DNA of 64,000 bases from Palleronia sp. LCG004 (GTDB taxonomy: Bacteria; Pseudomonadota; Alphaproteobacteria; Rhodobacterales; Rhodobacteraceae). Below the pieces are notes generated by a model. It was given only the letters and a program-made list of their open reading frames with translations, was not told the DNA's origin and did no database searches. This document shows, piece after piece, positions 17,036 through 45,877 of the stretch (within the stretch, counting starts at the first letter, position 1; each line of letters begins with the position of its first letter). The position numbers were made by a program, and so were the translations under genes. The DNA is taken from positions 2,232,001 to 2,296,000 of the forward strand of contig NZ_CP136759.1 of NCBI RefSeq assembly GCF_032931615.1, given 5' to 3'.

Positions 17036-17043
17036 TACTGGTA

Positions 17044-17077
17044 TCCTTCCAGATATATGCCCTTCGTTGGGGAAGGG
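17044..17077 (-). promoter_or_regulatory. structured serC 5' leader, candidate serC RNA motif
   Basis: On the minus-strand transcript the leader has a hairpin CCCTTC-cccaac-GAAGGG (17077-17060) just upstream of the ribosome site GGAAGGA (17050-17044). The 5' arm contains CCTTCC, which can pair either with GAAGGG of the hairpin or with the GGAAGG of the ribosome site. These are mutually exclusive folds that would switch translation. A conserved 'serC' RNA motif is known upstream of serC-serA operons in alphaproteobacteria; I cannot align to its covariance model, so identity is an inference from position and structure. Confidence 0.55.
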
Positions 17078-17550
17078 TGTCCCGCCGCCGCACATACGGA
17101 CAGTTCGACGGAGAGGCAAGAGATTCCGATTGCGAAGTGTTCGTCCCTCGCAAGACATGCAGACCCCCGCATTCTGCAATGAAGCGGAGACCGCTTCGGC
17201 ATTCGTCACGCACCGGGATATTTCGCATCGGACGCCGGGATGTGAATCGAGGAGCCTGGGCAGGACGGTCGCGACGGTGCAGCCCTGAGAAAAACAGCGG
17301 AACCTTTTTTCCGAGCGCGACCGAGCCAGCGGAATCCGCCTTCCTGTCCTTGGGCCCACAAGCGCGCGGGCCTCCGGTCCGGTATGCTCCCGGAATCACC
17401 GATCCTCGAACCGGGGGCGACGATACCCTCGGCCATTCCCCTTTTTCCCGATTGTCCGAGGGTTGGTGCCCGACCCGGGCGACGGAGCGGTGTCCGTCGG
17501 CCGCAGGACGGGATATGGACGCCTCGAATGTCAGCAAGCGGAGCGCGCCC
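17078..17550. other. long divergent intergenic region between serC and serB
   Basis: About 470 bp without a convincing gene. It must hold the promoters for the serC-serA operon (leftward) and serB (rightward). A perfect 7-bp hairpin GAAGCGG-aga-CCGCTTC is at 17181-17197, and a weaker CGGAA...TTCCG element lies around 17298-17313. Open frames crossing the region have no ribosome sites or recognisable composition. Confidence 0.5.
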
Positions 17551-35322: not shown

Positions 35323-35925
35323 ATGGAACTCTTCTACAGTCAGGCATCGCCCTTCGTGCGCAAGGTGATGGTCCTCCTGCACGAGGCCGACAAGCTCGAC
35401 GCGGTCACGCTTCGCCAGGTGAGCATGACACCGCTCGCCCCCGATGCGGGACACAGCTCCATCGCGCCGCTGGGCAAGATCCCGACGCTGACCCGGCCGG
35501 ACGGCCCCGCCCTGTTCGACAGCCGCGTCATCACCCGGTATCTCGACGAGCGGTTCGGGACGGGCCTCTATCCAGACGCACGGCTCTGGGAGACGCTGAC
35601 GCTCGAGGCACTGGCCGACGGGATCATGGATGCGAGCGTTCTCATGGTCTACGAGGGGCGCACGCGGCCCGAGGAAAAGCGCCACGAGCCTTGGGTCGAT
35701 GCCCAATGGTCCAAGATCGGCCGGGCGCTCGACGCGATCGAGGAACGCTGGATGAGCCATCTTTCGGGGCGTCTCGACATGGGTCAGGTCGCGGTGGCCT
35801 GCGCGCTCGGCCATCTCGATTTCCGACACGCAAGCCGCAACTGGCGCGCGACCCGCCCGAACCTCGCCGCCTGGTCAGAACGTCGCGCCGAACGCCCGTC
35901 GTTCAAGGCAACCCGCCCGGAGTGA
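35323..35925 (+). CDS. glutathione S-transferase family protein
   Basis: A 200-aa GST. The N-terminal domain is MELFYSQASPFVRKVMVLLH with the glutathione-site LGKIPTLTRPDGPALFDSRV. The C-terminal helical domain contains MGQVAVACALGHLDFR with the conserved N-cap Asp region. GGAGG lies 6-7 bases upstream of the ATG. It is the last chromosomal gene before the tRNA-Ser island; the 175 bp between it and the left attachment repeat hold nothing recognisable. Confidence 0.88.
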   Translation: MELFYSQASPFVRKVMVLLHEADKLDAVTLRQVSMTPLAPDAGHSSIAPLGKIPTLTRPDGPALFDSRVITRYLDERFGTGLYPDARLWETLTLEALADGIMDASVLMVYEGRTRPEEKRHEPWVDAQWSKIGRALDAIEERWMSHLSGRLDMGQVAVACALGHLDFRHASRNWRATRPNLAAWSERRAERPSFKATRPE

Positions 35926-36100
35926 CGCCGACCGCCCTGCTCGGCTCCGACGGTTTGCGGGACGCATCGTGTCCGACCGGGATCCGGCAGTGCGTGACCG
36001 ACGGCACCGACTCTGCGACCCAGATCAAGGCCGATCGGGCCGGGAAAGCGCATCACGCCCGCGGCAAGCCCTGCGCTGCCATGCGTTGTTCCGATGAAGA

Positions 36101-36118
36101 TGGCGGAGGAGGTGGGAT
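36101..36118. repeat. left attachment site: 18-bp copy of tRNA-Ser 3' end
   Basis: TGGCGGAGGAGGTGGGAT is identical to 45112-45129, the last 18 nt (CCA, discriminator, acceptor strand and part of the T-arm) of tRNA-Ser on the minus strand. Flanking bases differ on both sides, so the repeat is exactly 18 bp. Confidence 0.9.
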
Positions 36119-36178
36119 ATTCCGCCCCCGCGCCTCAACTTCCTTTTCCCCTTGATTGCATAGCGATGGCGATGGCAA

Positions 36179-37501
36179 ATGTGTGTGGGAACTGTGTGTG
36201 GAAGCGCCTTGGCCAAGTATATTCAGAAGCGTCGACGTCGCTGGTATGCGACCCTTGATATTCCAAAGGATCTCCGCTCGCATTTCGGCGGAAAGCCTCG
36301 TTTCGTCGAGAGCTTGAAGACGGAAAGCCAGACCGAAGCGGAGCGCCGCTGTCCATTGCTGATTATTCGATGGAAGGCGGAGATTGAGGCTGCCCGCACC
36401 GGCGATACTGCGCCGTTACAGCATCTTCGAGAGGCTGCACTGGATTGGCGTGATCTCTTCGACACTACGCCGCATGGCGAGCAGAGAGATGCGTACGCAA
36501 TGATCCTTCAAGATAAGGCGGAAGCTGCCGAGCAGGAACGTCAGGGGGCTGGGAAGGCGCTCTACAAACTGGCGACGCGGCAGTGGCTCGAAACGAGTGA
36601 GAACGTAGAAGACTGGCTGACGACACTAGAGAACGAGCCGAAGACCATCGACATGAAACGGTCAGACCTCAAGCGTTTCGCGGGAAGGTTCAAGCTGACC
36701 AAGAGTGTTCAGCGAAAACACGTTCAGCGATGGGTTCACGACCTGCAGAACGAAGACGGCCTCAAGCTCGCTACCGTCCGCCGGATAGTCTCAGCCGCAC
36801 GGGGATACTGGGATTACCTGCAGCGCCTCGATGTTGTCAGAGACGACGTTGATCCATTCCACAAGGTGGTGCCGAACCGAAAGAGAAGCAGCAAGTCCAC
36901 AGCCGCGGACAAACGCCAGACGTTCTCCGCTTCGGCTGTCGTTGCTCTACTCTTCGCTGCGGTGGAACAGGGTGATCGCGACCTTGGCTTCCTGATCTGG
37001 CTTGGTATGTGGACGGGCTGTAGAATTGAGGAACTATGTGCCCTTCGCGTTTCCGACGTTTCCGGGGACCGCTTCACCGTCAGCGACGCAAAGTCCGAAG
37101 CAGGATTGCGAGAGGTGCCAATCCACTCTCAGCTGCTACCAGCAATAAGGTACTTGTGCGATAGCAGCTCTGACGGCTTCGTGCTCTCAGGTCTGACCTT
37201 CAATAAATACCAAGACAGATCCAACGCGGTCGGCAAACGCTTCGGTCGCTTGAAGACGAAGATGGGCTTCGACAAGACCCACGTATACCACTCGCTGCGG
37301 AAGACTGTTGCCACTCAGCTTGATGCCGCAGGTATCCCCGAAACTGTCAGCGCGAGGATTGTTGGCCACGACCTCAAGACCATGACTTACGGCCTTTACT
37401 CTGGCGGGGTTCCATTTGAGACGAAGCGACAAGCACTAGAAGCTCTCAGCTACCCCTTGCCGGATAACTCTCATGCGGAGTTGTGGAAAGGGGCGGAATG
37501 A
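36179..37501 (+). CDS. int: tyrosine recombinase / phage-type integrase (element 1)
   Basis: A 440-aa integrase with a short N-terminal segment (RRRRWYATLDIPKDLRSHFG, typical of alphaproteobacterial island integrases), a SAM-like core-binding domain (about 140-240) and the catalytic domain. The catalytic residues are seen as Arg in WTGCRIEELCALR, HSLR in YHSLRKTVATQ, His in VGHD and Tyr in TYGLYSGG. The ATG at 36179 lies inside the left arm-type repeat; the in-frame TTG at 36209, with GGAAG just upstream, may be the real start (430 aa). It begins 61 bp from the left attachment repeat and is intact. Confidence 0.9.
   Translation: MCVGTVCGSALAKYIQKRRRRWYATLDIPKDLRSHFGGKPRFVESLKTESQTEAERRCPLLIIRWKAEIEAARTGDTAPLQHLREAALDWRDLFDTTPHGEQRDAYAMILQDKAEAAEQERQGAGKALYKLATRQWLETSENVEDWLTTLENEPKTIDMKRSDLKRFAGRFKLTKSVQRKHVQRWVHDLQNEDGLKLATVRRIVSAARGYWDYLQRLDVVRDDVDPFHKVVPNRKRSSKSTAADKRQTFSASAVVALLFAAVEQGDRDLGFLIWLGMWTGCRIEELCALRVSDVSGDRFTVSDAKSEAGLREVPIHSQLLPAIRYLCDSSSDGFVLSGLTFNKYQDRSNAVGKRFGRLKTKMGFDKTHVYHSLRKTVATQLDAAGIPETVSARIVGHDLKTMTYGLYSGGVPFETKRQALEALSYPLPDNSHAELWKGAE
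36181..36204 (+). repeat. arm-type integrase binding repeat, left end of element 1
   Basis: Two GTGTGTGG units spaced 13 bp (36181, 36194) within a 24-bp segment that matches 40710-40733 except for one indel each way. It lies 62 bp inside the left attachment site. The paired arrangement and symmetric position suggest accessory integrase binding sites (inference). Confidence 0.6.
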
Positions 37502-37523
37502 AGCGTGCGCCGCTTGCGCCCCT

Positions 37524-38078
37524 CTAAGCGTCACTGAGGACCCTGTAGACGCTCCGCTCGGAAACCCCCAGCTCGTCGGCGATCTCCTTCCTCGTGCGCC
37601 CTGCATCGCTCAGGCGGCGCATGTCGTCAGCCTTCGCCCGGGCAGTCGGCGCTCTGCCCTTGTACTTCCCGTCAGCCTTCGCCTTCGCGATGCCTTCGCG
37701 TTGCCGCTCCAGCATAATCTCCCGCTCGAACTGAGCGATGCCGCCCAGCATCGTCAGCATCAGACGGCCGGTCGGCGTCTTCGTGTCAAGGTTCAGGTCG
37801 AGCACGTGAAGTGCGGCACCCTTGGCTTCGAGCGCGGCAGTGATTTCTAGCAGGTGCGCTGTCGAGCGGGCCAGCCTGTCGAGTTTCAACACGGCAAGTG
37901 TGTCTCCCTCCCGCACGTAGTCCAGAGCTTCAGCCAGCCTGTCGCGCTTCGCTGTGTCCACCGAGGAGACTTGTTCAGCAAAGATCCTCTCGCATCCTGC
38001 CGCCTCCAACTCCCGGCGCTGGGCGTCCAGTCCCGCTTTCTGATCAAGGGTCGAGGTTCGGGCGTATCCGATCTTCAT
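37524..38078 (-). CDS. serine recombinase (resolvase/invertase family)
   Basis: A 184-aa small serine recombinase. The catalytic Ser is in MKIGYARTSTLDQKAGLDAQ, with the arginines of LKLDRLARS and QFEREIMLERQREG. The C-terminal helix-turn-helix (DAGRTRKEIADELGVSERSVYRV) binds DNA. Resembles Tn3-type resolvases and DNA invertases; it is of full length. Convergent with the integrase, 22 bp apart. The DNA upstream of its start is rich in dyads (38101-38192) and could be its recombination site. Confidence 0.92.
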   Translation of the reverse strand: MKIGYARTSTLDQKAGLDAQRRELEAAGCERIFAEQVSSVDTAKRDRLAEALDYVREGDTLAVLKLDRLARSTAHLLEITAALEAKGAALHVLDLNLDTKTPTGRLMLTMLGGIAQFEREIMLERQREGIAKAKADGKYKGRAPTARAKADDMRRLSDAGRTRKEIADELGVSERSVYRVLSDA

Positions 38079-38100
38079 GGTAGTCGTCCTTCTGTCATAA

Positions 38101-38192
38101 GTATCTAAGACCTAATGGCAGATACCATGCCATAATGTCAAACCCACTCTTGTGTCAGTCTGTGGCAGCGGGAAACAACCCTGTCACAAGAG
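38101..38192. promoter_or_regulatory. dyad-rich region upstream of the serine recombinase, candidate res/operator site
   Basis: Within 92 bp just upstream of the recombinase start: GTATCT/AGATAC (38101-38125), ATGGCA/TGCCAT (38115-38133) and CTCTTGTG/CACAAGAG (38147-38192). Resolvases typically bind several dyads beside their own gene. No second copy of the full site was found in the window. Confidence 0.4.
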
Positions 38193-38301
38193 CAAGCCCC
38201 AAAGGCATGTCGTATGCCGACTAACGGTTCGCGGACAATCGAGCGCATCCCGCAGTCGCTGCCGCTATATCCTTAGTTAGAAGCTGATTAAGGAGACTAG
38301 T

Positions 38302-38511
38302 ATGCTTCCCTATTCCCGCGATGGTAGCACCTTCGATCACTCTTGCCGCTACAAGGACGGCCTCTTCCGGATCGGCGCGAAGGGGCGCGAGGACAAGGTG
38401 GCCAGCTATTCGGCTGCCCTCGCGTTGCTTGCTGCCATGCCTGTGGCTCGCTGGCGTAGACCTAACAGGAACGGCAACTTCGGGATCGTTCGCGGTTGCC
38501 ACTGGGCTTAA
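38302..38511 (+). CDS. small hypothetical protein in element 1
   Basis: A 69-aa basic ORF, MLPYSRDGSTFDHSCRYKDG onward, ending NGNFGIVRGCHWA. It has an excellent AAGGAGA ribosome site 6-7 bases upstream, the main reason for calling it. No family recognised; the two Cys and several aromatic residues are scattered. The 150 bp after it (38512-38661) contain nothing clear. Confidence 0.6.
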   Translation: MLPYSRDGSTFDHSCRYKDGLFRIGAKGREDKVASYSAALALLAAMPVARWRRPNRNGNFGIVRGCHWA

Positions 38512-38661
38512 AGAGCCATCACAACAGGAGTCGGGGCAGCTACAGTGCCCCGGCCACCCCCGGAAAAGGCGATGGGGGAACGTGCTCTCCGCCGCTTATG
38601 AAATAAGGCGCTCAGATTTCTGTGGTGAAAACCTCCGTGGGTCCCATGAGGACCTGCGGGC

Positions 38662-39426
38662 TCAGTAGGGCCAACCCTCTACAGCGTCCTCGCGCCACCA
38701 GTCGGCAAGGATGCGTGTCTTCTGTCCAAGGCGCTTCTCAAGCATCTTGATGACAGCCTCGATCTGGATCTCCGCCATGTTGCCGATGTCCTTTCCGACT
38801 CTGTCATCTAGCCTTCGTGCGCGTTCCTCGACCATGGCATCCCGGTCGTCGTCGGTAAGCTCTTTTCCGGCTAAGTCCTTCAGCGCTGCTAAGGCTCCCC
38901 ACCAAGTCTCAGGTAACGGCTTATCCGCCTCCAGCAGTCGCCTCCGTGAGCGCCGCATGTTCCCGACGGTGCCGTCCGCTGCTCCTGTGCTCTCGACCAG
39001 CACCCTCTTGCTGTAAGTATACGCGCCGCTGCAATCAGTCTGGCACGCCAACCGCCACGTCGCGTTGTTCTTCTCGGTTGCAGTCATAGGAAGGCGAGCC
39101 TTCGCGTTCTCCCGAAGCGCATGAAGCCGTGCCGCCTCCGCTGATCCTTCCCAGACTATAGCGGGCACCTTGTTCACGCCTGCCCGTTTGTACGCCTGAC
39201 GCCGGTGGTGGCCGTCAACTACTACAAGCTTGCCGTTCTTCGCGTCTCGCCACAGGTCGACCCTGTCGACGCTCCCTTTCCGCCGGATCGCTTCCGCAAT
39301 CTCCTCAACGTGGTGGTTCTCGTACTCATTGTCGCGATACTGAAATTCATCCGGGCGAGCATGGATTTCACTCAGCTTCACAGTGCGCTTGGTTGGCCGC
39401 GTAAGCCTTTGTTCTACAGTGGTCAT
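38662..39426 (-). CDS. ParB/sulfiredoxin-fold protein without a ParA partner
   Basis: A 254-aa protein. Residues ~15-110 form a ParB-N-like domain: VKLSEIHARPDEFQYRDNEY, IAEAIRRKGSVDRVDLW and the diagnostic VVDGHHRRQAYKRAG. The middle has a putative helix-turn-helix (about 125-185) and the C-terminus MAEIQIEAVIKMLEKRLGQK is helical. ParB-fold proteins can be CTPases, nucleases or regulators; with no ParA or obvious parS, plain partitioning is unlikely. No strong ribosome site is seen upstream. A 236-bp gene-free gap (39427-39662) lies before the next gene. Confidence 0.8.
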   Translation of the reverse strand: MTTVEQRLTRPTKRTVKLSEIHARPDEFQYRDNEYENHHVEEIAEAIRRKGSVDRVDLWRDAKNGKLVVVDGHHRRQAYKRAGVNKVPAIVWEGSAEAARLHALRENAKARLPMTATEKNNATWRLACQTDCSGAYTYSKRVLVESTGAADGTVGNMRRSRRRLLEADKPLPETWWGALAALKDLAGKELTDDDRDAMVEERARRLDDRVGKDIGNMAEIQIEAVIKMLEKRLGQKTRILADWWREDAVEGWPY

Positions 39427-39662
39427 TTCTGCTGGTCCGGTATCTGTTCAGGGTGGTTCGCCGGTCCAGTGCCCTATGCAGGATGACATGCCTGAGGTTG
39501 CATACCTCAGCGGCTCACTTGGCCGCCCCGAGGTTACCCCGGAGGGCAACCCCGAGGACGCACTCAGGACCAGCAAGAGAGAGACTGAGGACGCCTTGGC
39601 ATTGTGCGGTGGCCGTCACCACCACGTCATCCTCACGGTTCTCCCTGCAATGGTGGGTCCTT

Positions 39663-40592
39663 TTAGTCCCTATCATCTGTTTGCCCACTGGCGCGAAGAT
39701 GCTCCGTTGGAAATCCAAGGCCAGACAGAGTACTGTACATACGGTGCGTATCTGCGGTTGCAGATGCCTGAAGGACGTACTCGACGTCCCGTTGCATAGC
39801 GACGTCGCTCTCGGCTCCCCACAAAGAGCTTCTAAGCGCTTTCATCGCTCGTTCAAGACAAAGGTCAGCGCAGTAAAAGGCCCACTTATCACCGAACTCG
39901 TCAAAACCCTTCTGAGCTTCCGGAAGCACTTGCAGAATTTTACCACGTATCGAGCCGAAGCTGAAAAAATCCCTAGGATCTATGGAGTTAGCCATAAAAT
40001 TAATGAGGGTGACCGCGTAAACCACTACCATCTCATAAGCCTCGACATTCTGCACCACCTCTTCGGGTAAGAACACATCTCGCCTGAATTTTCCTCTTGC
40101 CCTGTCTTTGTGTCTATTCAACCATTCATCGACCGCCGCAGACTTGGACAGCAGCGCGAATAGCTTCGCAGTTTCATCTAGGCCCGCGTCCGCGATCAGC
40201 TCTTCGTACTTAATAATCTTCAGCATCTCTATGCAGACGCCCATACCGTTCAAGTGTTCGAAAGTCGCCACCAGTTCCTCGGCCACTTCTACCTTTTTTT
40301 CTTGAAGCGCCGCGTTCCTTTCGCGTCGTGAAGTCGCAAGTTCCCGGCGAAAAAATGCCCGCTGCTCTATAAGCTCTTGCTGCTCGGCTGTGTGCCGCAT
40401 CTCGATTGCTTTGAGTTTCGCCTTGACCTCCTCAAGCTCGGCGGATGCTCTAAGGTTGATACGTGCTGCAAAGTGCTTTCCGATGCTGTCTCGAAAGAGC
40501 ACCAACACTGCAATCGCGATGGCGGCAGCTATGCCAGACTGCAGGATCGCTGTAAGCCAAGTAGAAATGTTGCTCGTGTCGGGTAAAGACAT
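39663..40592 (-). CDS. membrane-anchored coiled-coil protein, unknown function
   Basis: A 309-aa protein: one N-terminal transmembrane helix (about residues 14-32, SGIAAAIAIAVLVLF), then a long charged coiled coil (about 45-105, ASAELEEVKAKLKAIEMRHT and on), then a ~200-residue helical domain (DETAKLFALLSKSAAVDEWL, VYAVTLINFMANSIDPRDFF). No family is recognised. AGGAG lies 8 bases upstream of the ATG. It is the gene nearest the inner attachment site of element 1 and its largest cargo. A defence or superinfection role is conceivable from location, not shown by the sequence. Confidence 0.75.
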   Translation of the reverse strand: MSLPDTSNISTWLTAILQSGIAAAIAIAVLVLFRDSIGKHFAARINLRASAELEEVKAKLKAIEMRHTAEQQELIEQRAFFRRELATSRRERNAALQEKKVEVAEELVATFEHLNGMGVCIEMLKIIKYEELIADAGLDETAKLFALLSKSAAVDEWLNRHKDRARGKFRRDVFLPEEVVQNVEAYEMVVVYAVTLINFMANSIDPRDFFSFGSIRGKILQVLPEAQKGFDEFGDKWAFYCADLCLERAMKALRSSLWGAESDVAMQRDVEYVLQASATADTHRMYSTLSGLGFPTEHLRASGQTDDRD

Positions 40593-40709
40593 CAGTTGCT
40601 CCTACTGAATCGTCTTAGAAACCGGCCAGAGGAACATCAAAGACTTCGAAGCTCGCTTGGTCAACTACACTCAGCTGCGCAAGCATGACGCTAACACCAT
40701 GGGATCAAC

Positions 40710-40733
40710 GTGTGTGGAACTCGTGTGTGGAAG
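40710..40733 (+). repeat. arm-type integrase binding repeat, right end of element 1
   Basis: Two GTGTGTGG units spaced 13 bp (40710, 40723), matching 36181-36204 and in the same orientation. It is 60 bp inside the middle attachment site, mirroring the 62 bp at the left end. Confidence 0.6.
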
Positions 40734-40793
40734 GTCGACCGACAAATCTCATAAGTCATTAAATTATAACGAATTTATTCTCGAATTGAGATT

Positions 40794-40815
40794 TGGCGGA
40801 GGAGGTGTCCTCCGC
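40794..40815. repeat. middle attachment site with overlapping hairpin
   Basis: TGGCGGAGGAGGTG (40794-40807) matches the first 14 bases of the 18-bp tRNA-Ser repeat. It overlaps a perfect palindrome, GCGGAGGA-ggtg-TCCTCCGC (40796-40815-ish), absent from the two outer copies. This is the apparent junction between the two elements. Confidence 0.75.
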
Positions 40816-40870
40816 ACCTTTCCGCTAGACATCTGACGAGGTTGATTAATTTCAACCAATTTCAAAATCA

Positions 40871-40888
40871 TACCACAAAAAATACCAC
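40871..40888. repeat. paired TACCAC arm-type repeats, left end of element 2
   Basis: TACCAC at 40871 and 40883, spaced 12 bp, 63 bp inside the middle attachment site. The same pair with the same spacing is at 44969/44981. On the integrase strand both read GTGGTA, sharing a GTGG core with the element 1 repeats. Confidence 0.5.
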
Positions 40889-41312
40889 GCCGCGCCGAGA
40901 TTGGCGGCAGCTTGGCGGGCCATGGGCGCAGGCAAGCATCGCGCTCAACGCCGGTCGGTCCACCTCTACTCTAGCCGTCACCAAGGGTCCCAGCAAAAAG
41001 GTTGCGATGATGCATCTCGCGTTGCCCGGGGGGGGGCGTGACAATCTGCGAGACCGACGCCTGAAGGGGACCGACGCCCCATGCCGCGTATCTGCTAACG
41101 CAGTAATTCGGTTGCTCAAGCCAACAAGTGCTGCGCCGATTTTCGGTCCACTACGCGCGCGCGTGCGAGGGTCCGTTAAACACCGTTATGAAGCGGCGCA
41201 TGGCGGCCGTCATCGTCCGACCGCAAACCATCAAGTGCGCCGGGGTTCGGTCCCGCTTGAAAATGGATCGTGGACCACGAACGCTGACGCATGGGGAGTG
41301 GTATCTATAAGT

Positions 41313-41403
41313 GTTCCGATCCAGAACCGATGCGATTTCCCGAAAGCGCCCCCACAGGTTCTATTTTGGAACCAAGTAGAACGCATCGGTTCTGATACGG
41401 AAC
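41313..41403. repeat. 22-bp imperfect inverted repeat with AGAACC words
   Basis: Arms at 41313-41334 and 41382-41403 match at 19 of 22 positions, including a perfect 12-bp AGAACCGATGCG/CGCATCGGTTCT. The 47-bp spacer has its own GGTTC...GGAACC hairpin. It begins 3 bp beyond the stop of the minus-strand operon, so it may be a terminator. It could also be an iteron-like replication site, since more AGAACC words follow to about 41440. Confidence 0.6.
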
Positions 41404-41405
41404 CG

Positions 41406-41819
41406 TCAGCCCGCGTTCTGGTCCATTCCAGAACCGCGTTCTGTTTTTGGCAGACGGTAGTTGCGCCACTCGTTCGACGCGGGTTCCTGGCCTTTAATCT
41501 TCTGGACCGGCTTGGTCGTCAGCCGCCATTCGTGGGCTTTCCTATGATACCAGTTGCCCTCAGATTCCAGCCTCAACAGTCCCTTGTCGATCAGCTCGTC
41601 ATACGCGCGCTGGACGGTTGCCTTTCCTATACCCAGCGCGCGGCCCGCCTCCGCAAACGACAGCCTAACGTTACCGTTGTTCGATCCGTTGTAGCGGGTG
41701 TGGAGTTCGAGAAAGACACGGACGGCTGCGCCCGACAGGCTGCGCCATGCGTCACTCTTCAGTAGGGCGTATGGGAGGGGCGCGTATTGCCCCTCCCGAT
41801 GCTTCCTTGCTCTACCCAT
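41406..41819 (-). CDS. winged-helix DNA-binding protein, replication-like (element 2)
   Basis: A 137-aa protein with a GntR/RepA-like winged helix: VRLSFAEAGRALGIGKATVQ followed by RAYDELIDKGLLRLESEGNW. The N-terminus (PYALLKSDAWRSLSGAAVRVFLELHTRY) resembles the start of plasmid/phage replication initiators and their regulators. The Met at 41819 overlaps the end of the upstream gene by 8 bp, indicating coupling. No catalytic Rep motif is seen, so it is more likely a regulator or accessory factor. Its coding end borders the inverted repeat. Confidence 0.7.
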   Translation of the reverse strand: MGRARKHREGQYAPLPYALLKSDAWRSLSGAAVRVFLELHTRYNGSNNGNVRLSFAEAGRALGIGKATVQRAYDELIDKGLLRLESEGNWYHRKAHEWRLTTKPVQKIKGQEPASNEWRNYRLPKTERGSGMDQNAG

Positions 41820-42150
41820 GGGCAGTGCGCCCGTGCGCGGGTTTACCGCCCAGAGCGCCGCCCAGCGCGCCATCCATGACCTTTCGGCGCAATGGCTGGG
41901 CCGAGCGCGGGAAACGCAATGCGACCACGTGGCAGGCTTTGGACAGGCGGTAGTGCGCGATCCGCTCAGGCCCCACGTAATCGGTCGTGATGGGCCAGCC
42001 GTAGGACGCGCGGAGCCGGTGAACGATTGCGCCCAAGCGCCAGCCGCGCACCTCTCCAATCTCGTCCAGATGGGTGATTGTGCGCCCTTGTAGCAGCGCG
42101 TGACAGGTCCAGTAGATCTGGGTTGGGTTGCTGTGCCAGTGTTCAGACAT
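41812..42150 (-). CDS. helix-turn-helix-type small protein (element 2)
   Basis: A 112-aa protein, start MSEHWHSNPTQIYWTCHALL, with THLDEIGEVRGWRLGAIVHR LRASYG-type spacing that resembles phage winged-helix domains built to read 'Leu...Gly...Arg-Leu...Leu-Arg...Gly'. The C-terminus is a glycine/alanine-rich tail (MDGALGGALGGKPAHG). AGAGGA lies about 10 bases before the ATG. It overlaps the next gene by 8 bp. I do not recognise a specific family with certainty. Confidence 0.6.
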   Translation of the reverse strand: MSEHWHSNPTQIYWTCHALLQGRTITHLDEIGEVRGWRLGAIVHRLRASYGWPITTDYVGPERIAHYRLSKACHVVALRFPRSAQPLRRKVMDGALGGALGGKPAHGRTAHG

Positions 42151-42333
42151 GGGCGATACGTCCTCTGTCAAGGATGACGGGCTGTATGGAATTGCTAAGG
42201 TTGCACCAACGGAAGCGGCGTTCCTTTGGACTTGCCGAGACCCTGCCCGATATGTCATCAACTGGACTTGTCACGGTGGCAGTTGATGTCACTCGGAAAG
42301 CCCCGACCCCGCCTGCGGAGTTGGGGTTTTTCA

Positions 42334-42567
42334 TTACGCGGCCTCGGAGTTAGGGTCAGTGCGCTGGGCGCGCAGATAGGCGTTCAGGTCAGTACCGTGG
42401 TAGCCAATACGCCGCCCGATGCGGATGAATGCGGGGCCGCGATTGCGGTGCCGCCATTGTGCGAGTTTTTCGACGCTGCCAAAAATACGCATTTCGGAAT
42501 CTTCGGGAAAGAAAATTCGGTCGCTGTCCAGTATATCACTGGCAGCACGTTTTGTTTCGTCGCCCAT
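42334..42567 (-). CDS. AlpA/excisionase-like DNA-binding protein
   Basis: A 77-aa MerR-like/HTH_17 protein: the core FGSVEKLAQWRHRNRGPAFI then RIGRRIGYHGTDLNAYLRA is the standard AlpA/Xis pattern (helix-turn-helix, wing, then 'W/Y-L' end). GAGGA precedes the ATG by about 10 bases. Such proteins regulate integrase genes or act as recombination directionality factors in P4-like islands, which fits its place in a small integrase-bearing element. About 180 bp without a gene separates it from the next gene downstream. Confidence 0.8.
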   Translation of the reverse strand: MGDETKRAASDILDSDRIFFPEDSEMRIFGSVEKLAQWRHRNRGPAFIRIGRRIGYHGTDLNAYLRAQRTDPNSEAA

Positions 42568-42676
42568 GCCGGTCGATCCTCGGTTGCTTCTGATGCCTCC
42601 AAATTACCGCGGGGTTTCACCGCTTGTCACGAGCGACATTCTTGCGCTTAAGCAGTTTCCGAAATCCGGAAAACGC

Positions 42677-43774
42677 TCAAGCCTTTTTTCGGAAAATCGC
42701 GTCATACCGAGACTTGTATTGCTCTTCGGAGCGAATAATTATCCCGTACGTATCTTTAGTCTTTTGAGACTTGGGCATTCTTCGAACAGCGCTAGCGTTA
42801 GCGTAGGCCTGCTTGAAAATTGCTTCCTCACTCATCTGCGGATAGACATCGGCAAGTGCCTCCAGCTCTTGCATCAAACAATCAAGGTTCTCTTTTTTCG
42901 CTCGACCGGAAGCATCAGCACCTTTCTTGCCGCGTAGATAATTTGCTTTTGCGGAACGGATACCTTTTAAAGCTGCAGCTTCGTAACTGAACTTCCATCG
43001 GTAATGCTCAACCATTCTACCTAGCCCCATAGCACGGCCAAACATGTACATTCTAATTTGACCGGCCAATTGCTTAGATAAAGGGCTGTCTCGCTGCCCG
43101 TCCTGGACAAAACTTTCAAAAGCCGACAATTCATCTAGAATTTTGAATTCGAACCACTGCTTTGAAAATACGGACTCAAGGTCTGATAACTTATGAGCGA
43201 TAAGTTCTTGAAGCAGATCATATGGGCTTCTAGACTTTTTTGGGACTTCTTCATAATCCACAAAATCGAGTGGGTAGCTCTGATCTACAATCTTAAATGC
43301 CTTAGCAACTTCCTCTTGCGAGAAGTGAGTTGAATTTAGCTTGGCTGCACGAACTACGCGCAAAGCCCAATTAAGCTCAACAGCTCTCTCAATCAGAATA
43401 TCGAAATACTCTCGTAAACTTTCATGGTCGAAGTTATTCCGGCATTGCTGAACAATAAATTGCCACAACTCGTGACGGTTGAAATCGAAAAACTCCAATT
43501 CCCACCACTGAGGGGCAGAATAAACCTGATTTCTATCCAGATATTCGCTTAGTTCACGCACTCGAACGCTGTTGGCAACGTTTTCGGAAAGAACGTTTTG
43601 CAGTTCATCCTTAGCGCGAGGAGGAAGATTCATATGAGTTCGGAACAACCATTCCTGTGTCGTCTTGCCGAGCTGAACCGAAAAGCCTCCAGCTTCCCCA
43701 TTCAAGAACGGGTTAAGTTCATCAGATAGAATCTTATTTAGTCTTTCGGTTTCCTCTGGAGTAAACTGATCCAT
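42677..43774 (-). CDS. unrecognised 365-aa cargo protein coupled to the integrase
   Basis: No family recognised. The protein is soluble, acidic-to-neutral and mostly helical, with an aromatic-rich middle (YSAPQWWELEFFDFNRHELW) and a basic C-terminus (SAKANYLRGKKGADASGRAK; ending YKSRYDAIFRKKA). No membrane segment, Walker, nuclease or HTH motif is evident. Base composition is markedly AT-richer than neighbours, suggesting separate acquisition. GGGAGG stands 4 bases before the ATG at 43774, which overlaps the integrase stop (TGATG), so it is translated with the integrase. The position, between integrase and control genes of a tRNA-borne element, is where defence or other accessory cargo commonly sits. 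Confidence 0.8.
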   Translation of the reverse strand: MDQFTPEETERLNKILSDELNPFLNGEAGGFSVQLGKTTQEWLFRTHMNLPPRAKDELQNVLSENVANSVRVRELSEYLDRNQVYSAPQWWELEFFDFNRHELWQFIVQQCRNNFDHESLREYFDILIERAVELNWALRVVRAAKLNSTHFSQEEVAKAFKIVDQSYPLDFVDYEEVPKKSRSPYDLLQELIAHKLSDLESVFSKQWFEFKILDELSAFESFVQDGQRDSPLSKQLAGQIRMYMFGRAMGLGRMVEHYRWKFSYEAAALKGIRSAKANYLRGKKGADASGRAKKENLDCLMQELEALADVYPQMSEEAIFKQAYANASAVRRMPKSQKTKDTYGIIIRSEEQYKSRYDAIFRKKA

Positions 43775-44961
43775 CACACCTCCCTATTGTTGTTTTTCGA
43801 GAACAGCCTCGACCAAGCATCCATAGTGACCCGTCTACGCTCCAGTAGGTCCGACCGCGCATAAGCACGCTCCACATCTGTTCCAACCTGATGCGCTAGC
43901 GCTGCTTCCGCGACCTCGCGCGGCGCGTTCGCCACCTCGGACGCCCAATCCCGAAAGCTGCTACGGAAGCCGTGGACGGTGAAGGCATCGCGTCCCATGC
44001 GGCGCATCAGCATTAGCATGGACATGTTCGACAGGGGCTTGTGCCGCTTCTGGCCCTCAAACACGTAATCCGACGCCGTGGCCCGCATCTCGCGCAAGAT
44101 TGCTAGCATCTCGTCCGTTAGGGGAACGCGGTGCTGAACGCCGCCCTTCATTCGCGCGCCCGGTATGGTCCAGAGACGCGCTTCAAGATCCACCTCGTCC
44201 CACGTCATGCCTAGAACCTCGGACGTGCGACAGGCGGTCAGGATGGTGAATTGAAGCGCCCGCGCCGCCGTGGCCGTGCGCGCGCCTAGTTCGGCGTAGA
44301 ACGCGGGAACGTCCGCGTAGGGCATCGCATCATGGTGCTGCGCCCGGACCCTTACTTTTGGCAGCACGTGGGCTTCCTTGACTGCCGTGACGGGGTTCTC
44401 CCCCGACCGGAGGCCCTTGGACCGCGCCACGTCCAGAACCGCCTTGAGGCGCTGGGCCAGCCGCTTGGCCGTTTCATGCTTCGTGGTCCAGATGGGGGAC
44501 AGGCACATCAGGATTTCGGGTTGCCCGATACTGTCCACCGGCATCCGCCCGATCTTGGGGAATGCATAATCCCGAAGGGTATTCAGCCATTGATCGCCGT
44601 GCTTGGGGTTCTTCCACGTGGGAAGGCGGTCAATATGGACCTGACGCGCCAGTTCCTCGAACGTGGGAACGTCCATCTGAGCGTTGAAACGGGGATTGAG
44701 GCCCCGCTTTGCCATGCGACGATATTCGAGCGCCCGCTCGCGGGCTTGGTTCAGGGTGACGACATCAGCGCCGCCCAAGCCAAAGTCTGTTCGGAGCGGT
44801 GCGCCCGCGCGATTCTTCTGCCCTTTGATGGTGACACGCACGATCCAGCGCCGCGCGCCGGAGGGGTCCACTACCAGATAGAGGCCCGCGCCATCGCCGT
44901 GCCGTCCTGGCCCGTGATTCTCCACCAGCCGTTTCGTCAGCTTTCCGCCCAGCGCCGCCAT
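43774..44961 (-). CDS. int: P4-type tyrosine integrase (element 2)
   Basis: A 395-aa integrase of the tRNA-targeting P4 class. An N-terminal arm-DNA-binding DUF4102-like domain (HGDGAGLYLVVDPSGARRWI) precedes the core domain (about 95-180) and the catalytic domain. Catalytic residues: Arg in ILTACRTSEVLGMTW, HGFR in VHGFRSSFRDW, His in ALAHQVG and Tyr in ERAYARSDLLERR. It is intact. It reads away from the tRNA-Ser 150 bp to its right, the usual layout. Paired TACCAC repeats lie between its start and the tRNA. Confidence 0.93.
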   Translation of the reverse strand: MAALGGKLTKRLVENHGPGRHGDGAGLYLVVDPSGARRWIVRVTIKGQKNRAGAPLRTDFGLGGADVVTLNQARERALEYRRMAKRGLNPRFNAQMDVPTFEELARQVHIDRLPTWKNPKHGDQWLNTLRDYAFPKIGRMPVDSIGQPEILMCLSPIWTTKHETAKRLAQRLKAVLDVARSKGLRSGENPVTAVKEAHVLPKVRVRAQHHDAMPYADVPAFYAELGARTATAARALQFTILTACRTSEVLGMTWDEVDLEARLWTIPGARMKGGVQHRVPLTDEMLAILREMRATASDYVFEGQKRHKPLSNMSMLMLMRRMGRDAFTVHGFRSSFRDWASEVANAPREVAEAALAHQVGTDVERAYARSDLLERRRVTMDAWSRLFSKNNNREV

Positions 44962-44968
44962 ACGTCCC

Positions 44969-44986
44969 TACCACATTCCGTACCAC
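44969..44986. repeat. paired TACCAC arm-type repeats, right end of element 2
   Basis: TACCAC at 44969 and 44981, again 12 bp apart, 125 bp from the tRNA attachment site and just upstream of the integrase start. Matches the pair at 40871/40883. Confidence 0.5.
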
Positions 44987-45111
44987 ACAAGGAAAGCGTA
45001 GCAGACAAAACGAATGAAAGCGAACAAAACCCGAAACAGGGCATATCCCTAAAGAAAACTGTGGGTTAGGCCGGTGTAGACTGCCATATGATATTGGGGA
45101 AAATTGGTCAG

Positions 45112-45201
45112 TGGCGGAGGAGGTGGGATTCGAACCCACGGTGCGCATTCACGCACGTCGGTTTTCAAGACCGGTGCAATAGACCACTCTGCCACTCCTC
45201 C
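45112..45201 (-). tRNA. tRNA-Ser (anticodon UGA), attachment site of the island
   Basis: A 90-nt class II tRNA with encoded CCA. Acceptor GGAGGAG/CTCCTCC, discriminator G, anticodon loop CTTGAAA (UGA), long variable arm (GTGCG...CGCAC), T-loop TTCGAAT. Its last 18 nt (45112-45129) are the right attachment site, identical to 36101-36118; the gene is left intact by the integration. Confidence 0.97.
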
Positions 45202-45364: not shown

Positions 45365-45877
45365 ATGTCCAAGCGGGAGATGTGCCGCCCGATCCTGCGG
45401 GCCGCGACGATCGGATCGGTGCTGATGCTCGCAGGCTGCGTCGGCGGGTCTGCGGATCGCGACGGCCGGGCGGCGCGTGACGGCACGGAGATCCCGACCA
45501 CGCCTGCCGCCGCCAGCGGGCCGGACGTGGAGGCACCCGAAGTCTTTCAGGCGCGCGCGGAGGGCCTCTGGGACGGCCGGCCGTCGCTCGGCGGGATCTG
45601 GGTCGCGCATCCCGATGTCGACACGCCGGAACGGGTGATCATCCGCAACGTCGAGACCGGCAGCGTGACGACCGGCGCGCTTTTCCGGCGCGAACGAGAG
45701 ATCCCCGGGCCCGTCCTGCAGGTCAGCAGCGATGCGGCCGCGGAACTCGGGATGCTGGCAGGTGCGCCCGCGACGCTCGACGTGACGGCATTGCGCCCGG
45801 CACCCGCCGGGGACAGGCCGGAAGGCGCGCCGGACGACATCGCGGACGCGCCCGCCGAAGAGGTCGAGGGGAGCTGA
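45365..45877 (+). CDS. RlpA-like (double-psi barrel) lipoprotein
   Basis: A 170-aa lipoprotein: lipobox LMLAGC about residue 25. The body (GGIWVAHPDVDTPERVIIRN, VETGSVTTGAL, VLQVSSDAAAELGMLAG) follows the RlpA barrel layout 'VxVxNxxTGxxV...LSxxAAxxLGM', but the catalytic Asp/His context of lytic RlpA enzymes is not evident. It is probably a structural or glycan-binding relative. AAGGAG precedes the ATG. The position next to a D,D-carboxypeptidase gene supports a cell-wall role. The frame upstream runs through the tRNA and is not coding. Confidence 0.65.
   Translation: MSKREMCRPILRAATIGSVLMLAGCVGGSADRDGRAARDGTEIPTTPAAASGPDVEAPEVFQARAEGLWDGRPSLGGIWVAHPDVDTPERVIIRNVETGSVTTGALFRREREIPGPVLQVSSDAAAELGMLAGAPATLDVTALRPAPAGDRPEGAPDDIADAPAEEVEGS

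Follow-up and report, generated by a model that had tools for sequence, protein, structure and literature searches.

The DNA analysed here, a 64,000-nucleotide stretch of Palleronia sp. LCG004 (hereafter the window), carries at positions 36101-45111 what is very probably a tandem array of two independent integrative elements, seated at the 3' end of a tRNA-Ser(UGA) gene. The two elements represent two families, each with its own integrase, its own paired terminal repeats (doublets), its own core length and near-fixed spacing, and both ends of each are present in the window. Each half is also found alone at the same kind of site in relatives, including Roseivivax, Nioella, genome G213 and others. 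Tandem arrays at tRNA genes are an already known kind of arrangement, usually recognised by their repeats and integrase genes; in this array the middle junction is readable base by base. The analysis adds end-by-end evidence, a rule for core length, and an order of arrival and excision that can be tested.

Attachment repeats and array layout

The array comprises the following attachment (att) cores, doublets and integrase genes.

36101-40793: element 1
36101-36118, plus strand: element-1 left attachment core, 18 bp of the tRNA-Ser 3' end, then ATTCCGCC (exact repeat)
36179-37501, plus strand: element-1 tyrosine integrase (PF20172, DUF6538, and PF00589, Phage_integrase)
36181-36201, plus strand: element-1 left doublet GTGTGTGGN5GTGTGTGG, probable arm sites, starting 80 bp after the core start
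40710-40730, plus strand: element-1 right doublet, starting 84 bp before the middle core
40794-45111: element 2
40794-40807, plus strand: middle attachment core, the element-1 right end joined to the element-2 left end, 14 bp then TCC (exact repeat)
40871-40888, plus strand: element-2 left doublet TACCACN6TACCAC, starting 77 bp after the core start
43774-44961, minus strand: element-2 tyrosine integrase (Arm-DNA-bind_3, Phage_int_M and Phage_integrase, Pfam)
44969-44986, plus strand: element-2 right doublet, starting 143 bp before the tRNA
45112-45129, plus strand: right attachment core, within the intact tRNA (ARAGORN, exact repeat)
45112-45201, minus strand: tRNA-Ser(TGA), integration target (ARAGORN)

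The tRNA 3' end, which reads TGGCGGAGGAGGTGGGAT on the plus strand, recurs exactly at 36101-36118 (18 bp, identical to 45112-45129) and over 14 bp at 40794-40807 (identical to 45112-45125). These repeats had been put forward in an earlier model-made prediction from the letters of this DNA (the original prediction), and exact matching and shuffling confirm them. Beyond the two copies, neither strand of the window holds another exact match of at least 12 bp to 45100-45201. With up to three mismatches allowed, the 18-mer occurs at exactly three sites in the 64 kb, against a mean of 0.09 and a maximum of 1 in 100 shuffled sequences, and at 11 sites in the whole genome, where the two outer copies are the only exact ones. 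For the 14-mer, the chance expectation within the 9-kb interval is approximately 4e-5 (from base composition only). The guanine-cytosine content is 56.7% in element 1 and 56.1% in element 2, compared with about 66% on either side.

Both tyrosine integrases are open and match recombinase models; they lie, as had been predicted, at the outer ends of the array, on opposite sides, and both read inward. Their description as unrelated holds in part: the recombinase domain is common to both (22% identity over 160 amino acids), whereas the N-terminal domains differ, DUF6538 in the element-1 enzyme and Arm-DNA-bind_3 in the element-2 enzyme. Family alignment makes a TTG at 36209 the likely true start of the element-1 integrase. 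Each member thus has its own integrase gene (Pfam) and its own fragment of the tRNA gene (18 bp at 36101, 14 bp at 40794), the two features by which Islander defines members of a tandem.

Doublets mark both ends of each element

The first direct-repeat family listed for the interval falls at 36178 and 40707, just inside the left and middle copies of the tRNA end. It corresponds to the motif GTGTGTGGN5GTGTGTGG at 36181 and 40710, which is found nowhere else in the 64 kb even with one mismatch and never appeared in 100 shuffles. A second doublet, TACCACN6TACCAC, occurs at 40871 and 44969 and is likewise found nowhere else in the 64 kb with one mismatch allowed (shuffles, 0.04). Each half therefore owns a doublet at both its ends, at the spacing typical of its family. 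From their arm-type appearance, the doublets are probably integrase arm sites.

Doublets of both families (36181-36201 and 40871-40888 in the window, and those of relatives) contain GTGGTA in many members, in one and the same orientation with respect to the integrase gene. This hexamer is common to both doublet families although the integrases are only 22% identical over their common part.

Element 1 and its family

Relatives of the left integrase were found in 7 of 295 genomes of the host family at E ≤ 1e-30 (the window's own included), and a collection of named genomes yielded 60 loci. Fetched DNA contained both a left core and a tRNA in 20 of these 60, in a search that covered the layout integrase, element, tRNA; the targets were tRNA-Ser in 18, tRNA-Glu in one and tRNA-Asp in one. 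In those 20 loci, as in the window, the integrase occupies the end of the element far from the tRNA and points toward it, and in none of the 60 does the 1 kb upstream of the integrase gene contain a tRNA. Among the remainder, 33 lacked a downstream tRNA in the fetched DNA, and in L169, L191, L197 and L215 the integrase lay too near the contig start to show a left core. The integrase type is spread over alpha-, beta- and gammaproteobacteria.

Core identity to the tRNA was measured in 25 family-1 loci, consisting of the window, four other loci and the 20 collection loci: 17 bp in 13, 18 bp in six, 19-20 bp in three and 52-55 bp in three. Adding L163 (18 bp), L039, L194 and L214 gives 29 loci with both ends in fetched DNA, of which 26 (window included) have an unbroken core of at least 17 bp. 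Left out of the count were integrase relatives of weaker similarity from G003 and G012 (25-30% identity), which have repeats of about 20 bp some 15 kb from the tRNA.

Solo copies of element 1 at tRNA-Ser(TGA) occur in Roseivivax sp. GX 12232 (L168, 4,785 bp, with the integrase, serine recombinase, ParB order of the window), Nioella sediminis (L167, 6,702 bp) and Roseovarius nubinhibens (L170, 6,924 bp); others are in Palleronia pelagia (L039) and G008 (L054). Beyond the tRNA-Ser(TGA), the Roseivivax, Nioella and Roseovarius counterparts and the window all carry the same small open reading frame (ORF; window 45365-45874). The distance of 84 bp from the start of the right doublet to the start of the tRNA is also seen in L039, L054, L159, L160 and L168; in the window, the same spacing leads to the middle core rather than to the tRNA. 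A serine recombinase homologue is present in 39 of the 60 loci and a ParB-like homologue in eight.

Element 2 and its family

The right integrase has relatives, many of them distant, in 168 of the 295 host-family genomes (E ≤ 1e-30, the window's own included). Element-2 integrases 66-84% identical to that of the window occur in other genomes, mostly adjoining tRNA genes, and a TACCAC doublet lies beside the integrase in all 30 family-2 loci returned (window included). We fetched 35 longer family-2 stretches, mostly covering the same loci. For 31 of them the distance between the start of the right doublet and the tRNA is 142 or 143 bp; the other four are L127 and L154 (tRNA not found), L149 (no right-end doublet match) and L156 (partial integrase match). 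Targets of this family comprise tRNA-Ser(TGA, GGA, GCT), tRNA-Arg(ACG) and tRNA-Met(CAT).

Seven of the 35 stretches contain a left doublet, and in six it marks a left end at a tRNA-like core. Five of these left ends (L133, L134, L136, L149 and L153) have exactly 14 bp of tRNA followed by TCC, and the sixth (L124) matches 13 of 14 bp and continues with TCT. All six share the 77-bp spacing from core start to doublet start that the window shows (40794 to 40871). In genome G026, an element with a more distant integrase (42%), placed at its tRNA-distal end, also shows 14 bp followed by TCC. Locus L124, in G213, is a solo element 2 of 4,343 bp with homologous genes for the helix-turn-helix, 149-amino-acid and winged-helix proteins. 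L127 (G026:C1:3261200-3277000) has an 81% identical element-2 integrase and a left doublet at a non-tRNA site (no tRNA found there), with the palindromic 15-bp stretch CGGACAGACAGTCCG near both ends.

Middle junction and proposed order of arrival

Because solo family-2 relatives show 14 bp of tRNA, then TCC, and a doublet 77 bp on, the 14-bp middle copy is a normal element-2 left end and not a decayed 18-bp repeat. Together with the solo relatives and the doublets owned by each half, this supports the predicted two successive insertions that left three att sites.

The more symmetrical cores read TGGCGGA-N13-TCCGCC in family 1 and GGCGGA-N7-TCCGCC in family 2, the right half being lost in some members. 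From these patterns we infer the following strand-exchange overlaps, which L194 fits poorly (see below).

36111-36117, plus strand: putative 7-bp strand-exchange overlap GGTGGGA of the element-1 integrase (TGGCGGA-N3-(N7)-N3-TCCGCC symmetry; identity stops at 17 bp in 13 of 25 cores)
40801-40807, plus strand: putative 7-bp overlap GGAGGTG of the element-2 integrase (GGCGGA-N7-TCCGCC symmetry in some relatives)

Both integrases would thus use the half-site TGGCGGA, with overlaps shifted by 3 bp. With 7-bp overlaps midway between the half-sites, identity would end at 7+3+7 = 17 bp in family 1 and at 7+7 = 14 bp in family 2, or slightly later by chance, and the cores observed mostly match these predicted ends. 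Whichever element lies on the tRNA-proximal side of an att copy would then determine the length of identity there.

Two stacks in the opposite order agree with such a rule. Six of the 60 family-1 loci contain an element-2 integrase homologue; two are these reversed stacks, and those in L172, L205, L219 and L220 are partial or distant. In Boseongicola aestuarii (L190), a 19-bp middle core lies between an element-2 doublet, which starts 143 bp ahead of it, and the element-1 integrase, beyond which comes tRNA-Ser(TGA). Phaeobacter sp. HF9A (L179), with tRNA-Ser(GCT) as target, has a middle core of 55 bp and an element-2 doublet starting 142 bp ahead of it.

An entering element would leave the tRNA whole and displace the resident away from it. 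If newcomers enter at the tRNA in this manner, the tRNA-proximal element would be the latest, and we infer that element 1 arrived first and element 2 second. Element 2 could excise alone by recombination between 40794 and 45112, releasing 4,318 bp. At the middle site, GGTGTCC differs from the putative element-1 overlap GGTGGGA at three of seven positions, so element 1 should be locked in place until element 2 leaves; a 4.7-kb circle made by its own integrase would not be expected while element 2 is present. Alternatively, element 1 might leave together with element 2 as a 9,011-bp circle. Such a lock fits the ICE-IME accretion (integrative and conjugative element, integrative mobilizable element) at a tRNA-Lys gene of Streptococcus agalactiae, where the tRNA-proximal element and the whole composite excise (PMC5704250).

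We therefore put forward, tentatively and with slightly less than even confidence, a general scheme in which two mini-integrative families with one tRNA-Ser target use the same half-site with overlaps offset by 3 bp, so that position in the stack would record the order of arrival and the newer element would lock the older (last in, first out). It appears that the tRNA-proximal element fixes how far each copy matches the tRNA, and the doublet spacing assigns each end to its element. If the offset idea is true, tRNA arrays could be read as a record of arrivals, and the order of excision could be predicted from their sequence.

Alternative explanations and points of weakness

An improbable alternative is that element 2 came first and element 1 then entered at its distal junction. 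The same final order would result, the core is common to both over 14 bp, and in L194 a family-1 left core does depart from the tRNA sequence at two positions of the putative overlap. Set against this are the unbroken cores of at least 17 bp in 26 of 29 family-1 loci, the three of seven bases at which the putative overlap differs from element 2's distal junction, and the two reversed stacks, since where element 2 is distal (Boseongicola, Phaeobacter) it is element 1 that adjoins the tRNA.

It is quite unlikely that the parts were fused before arrival and moved in through the outer sites as one 9-kb composite. Movement of a 9,011-bp unit would be allowed by the outer cores (36101 and 45112), which match exactly over 18 bp, and excision of a whole composite is reported for the S. 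agalactiae tandem (PMC5704250). However, this order occurs in no relative examined and each element is found alone elsewhere; moreover, the middle junction consists of a correctly spaced element-1 right end and element-2 left end. An invariant 9-kb unit, which the original prediction had named as the observation that would speak against two insertions, was likewise not seen in the relatives examined (other species). Even a true composite would merely move the accretion to an earlier host.

That the array is a larger island which lost its middle, with two integrases by coincidence and the 14-bp match as a relic, is very improbable and largely contradicted: five other family members whose length was measured (8.6-12.9 kb) exceed the 4.3 kb of element 2 in the window, but each half has a solo counterpart close to it in length (Roseivivax, 4,785 bp; G213, 4,343 bp), and both halves retain both ends with doublets at the family spacing.

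Several observations weigh against two successive insertions or the geometry proposed for them. In family 1, three of the 29 loci lack an unbroken 17-bp core: that of L039 differs at its first three bases and matches from there on; the left core of L194 (Azospira oryzae) has two mismatches to the nearby tRNA-Ser(GGA), at bases 11-12, inside the putative overlap; and no core was found in L214, where the integrase match is partial. A relaxed right-end doublet was found within 150 bp of the tRNA in 12 of 64 other family-1 loci; its start precedes the tRNA by 84-86 bp in nine of these and by 64 or 89 bp in the other three (L175, L178 and L182 were dropped from this count as coming from the same genomes as L160, L039 and L161). 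In family 2, 28 of the 35 stretches have no exact left doublet in the fetched DNA, several being ended by the contig, and the left ends at tRNA genes come from six relatives, one of them mismatched. As for the reversed stacks, the element-2 distal end was found in the fetched stretch of neither, and the Boseongicola element-2 integrase is split over two frames. Finally, the 175 bp between the glutathione S-transferase (GST) gene and the array (35926-36100) match nothing fetched, and the original empty site was not seen, because this left flank is unmatched and the local chromosome is rearranged.

Chromosomal context

Among genus relatives whose GST region was fetched, 10 of 10 have dapF-mtaB-GST followed by petABC (gene identities by Pfam). 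The gene named mtaB carries Radical_SAM and UPF0004 domains, and we take it to be mtaB on that basis. In the genome of the window, petB lies at C1:2,884,444 (G000:C1:2884444-2885796) on the opposite strand, and petA starts about 618 kb from GST; a large rearrangement has therefore occurred, with one edge between GST and the island (window 35323-36100). A single inversion was considered as its cause and was not demonstrated. An empty tRNA-Ser site joined directly to GST, suggested by the original prediction as a check, is consequently unusable, GST being followed by petABC in the relatives. No relative examined shows the GST-tRNA-Ser neighbourhood, and to the left of the islands in relatives no neighbouring gene recurs consistently, so that the ancestral left flank could not be named.

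Comparison with known systems

Table 1 of the Islander report (PMC4383910) gives 125 under 'Tandems ≥ 2' and 3,919 islands in all. Compared with those tandems, the members here are very small, and relatives provide separate core-length and spacing rules for each member. Another similar arrangement is the S. agalactiae accretion (PMC5704250), which shares the order attL, element, chimeric attI, element, attR, tRNA, and two very different tyrosine integrases. In contrast to that system, no relaxase or conjugation gene was found here, both integrases look intact, and the array is known from sequence alone. The Dehalococcoides ssrA islands (PMC3146451) are also stacked behind one RNA gene; they are multiple, bounded by 20-bp direct repeats, and thought to be mobilizable but not conjugating. 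Many of them share a characteristic integration gene cluster, whereas two distinct integrase families are present here. The 'Charybdis' ocean elements (PMC12324425) were considered and judged different. A limited literature search returned no earlier description of either element family and no mention of DUF6538.

P4-like satellites and phage-inducible chromosomal islands are small, helper-dependent phage satellites with an integrase, an AlpA-like regulator and replication-type genes. Element 2 may be comparable: it is small, its HTH_17 (AlpA-like) match falls below the Pfam cut-off and its replication-initiator match is weak. No packaging or hijacking gene was matched among nine window proteins (PHROGs). 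The same nine proteins gave no phage structural match, which does not favour a prophage. Nor is the array a cis-mobilizable remnant (CIME), which would have lost its integration genes while retaining att sites, since an open integrase is present in both halves. Ten window ORFs scanned with Pfam contained no transfer, relaxase or conjugation gene (no search for an origin of transfer was made), and the array accordingly does not qualify as an IME or ICE. Movement between cells would presumably depend on something else.

Cargo genes and further observations

The remaining genes of the two elements are as follows.

37524-38078, minus strand: element 1, small serine recombinase/DNA invertase (PF00239, E 1.3e-41; PHROG DNA invertase)
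38662-39426, minus strand: element 1, ParB-N domain protein (PF02195, E 8.3e-8)
39663-40592, minus strand: element 1, 309-amino-acid protein, presumed cargo (no family match above threshold)
41406-42059, minus strand: element 2, winged-helix protein, start uncertain (weak PHROG replication initiation match, E 7.5e-6; homologue in 8 of 35 family-2 stretches)
41812-42261, minus strand: element 2, 149-amino-acid conserved protein (homologue in 4 of 35 family-2 stretches)
42334-42567, minus strand: element 2, small HTH_17 (AlpA/excisionase-like) protein (PF12728, E 8.7e-5, below the Pfam cut-off; homologue in 28 of 35 family-2 stretches)
42677-43777, minus strand: element 2, orf366, 366-amino-acid protein between the helix-turn-helix gene and the integrase, presumed cargo (by position)

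The 309-amino-acid protein has one homologue besides itself in a protein search and none in the 60 family-1 loci; it gave one weak sub-threshold match each in Pfam and NCBIfam. For orf366, 16 homologues besides itself were found, with the same slot occupied in L142 and L126, and it matched nothing in Pfam, PADLOC or PHROGs. In seven other elements the slot between the helix-turn-helix gene and the integrase also holds genes that, like orf366, belong to no family above the cut-off. Neither orf366 nor the 309-amino-acid protein matched a PADLOC model, and a defence role for the two would be a guess drawn from the company of cargo in relatives.

Among the larger relatives of element 2, the 12.0-kb element of G297 at tRNA-Ser(TGA) (L136:2951-14981) has, within its att cores, genes for Cas1 and for Cas9, the latter spread over two overlapping reading frames; no CRISPR (clustered regularly interspaced short palindromic repeats) array was found in two stretches of L136. 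L133 and L134 hold a type III restriction-modification system (restriction and methylase genes) between their att cores, L149 has a restriction subunit there, and L133 has in addition a second recombinase-like ORF of about 340 amino acids. The solo element-1 relative L054 (G008) has a DNA methylase aboard, and its element-1-type integrase is in two pieces with a 310-amino-acid ORF between them.

In a phage collection, the element-1 integrase matched eight records, none over 80% of its length, and the element-2 integrase matched 256, all below 60% identity. A plasmid search with the 9.1-kb region returned one 43-bp match, in the tRNA part (a Segatella record). Elsewhere in the window, a serC leader RNA (Rfam RF00517) lies on the minus strand at 17036-17087.

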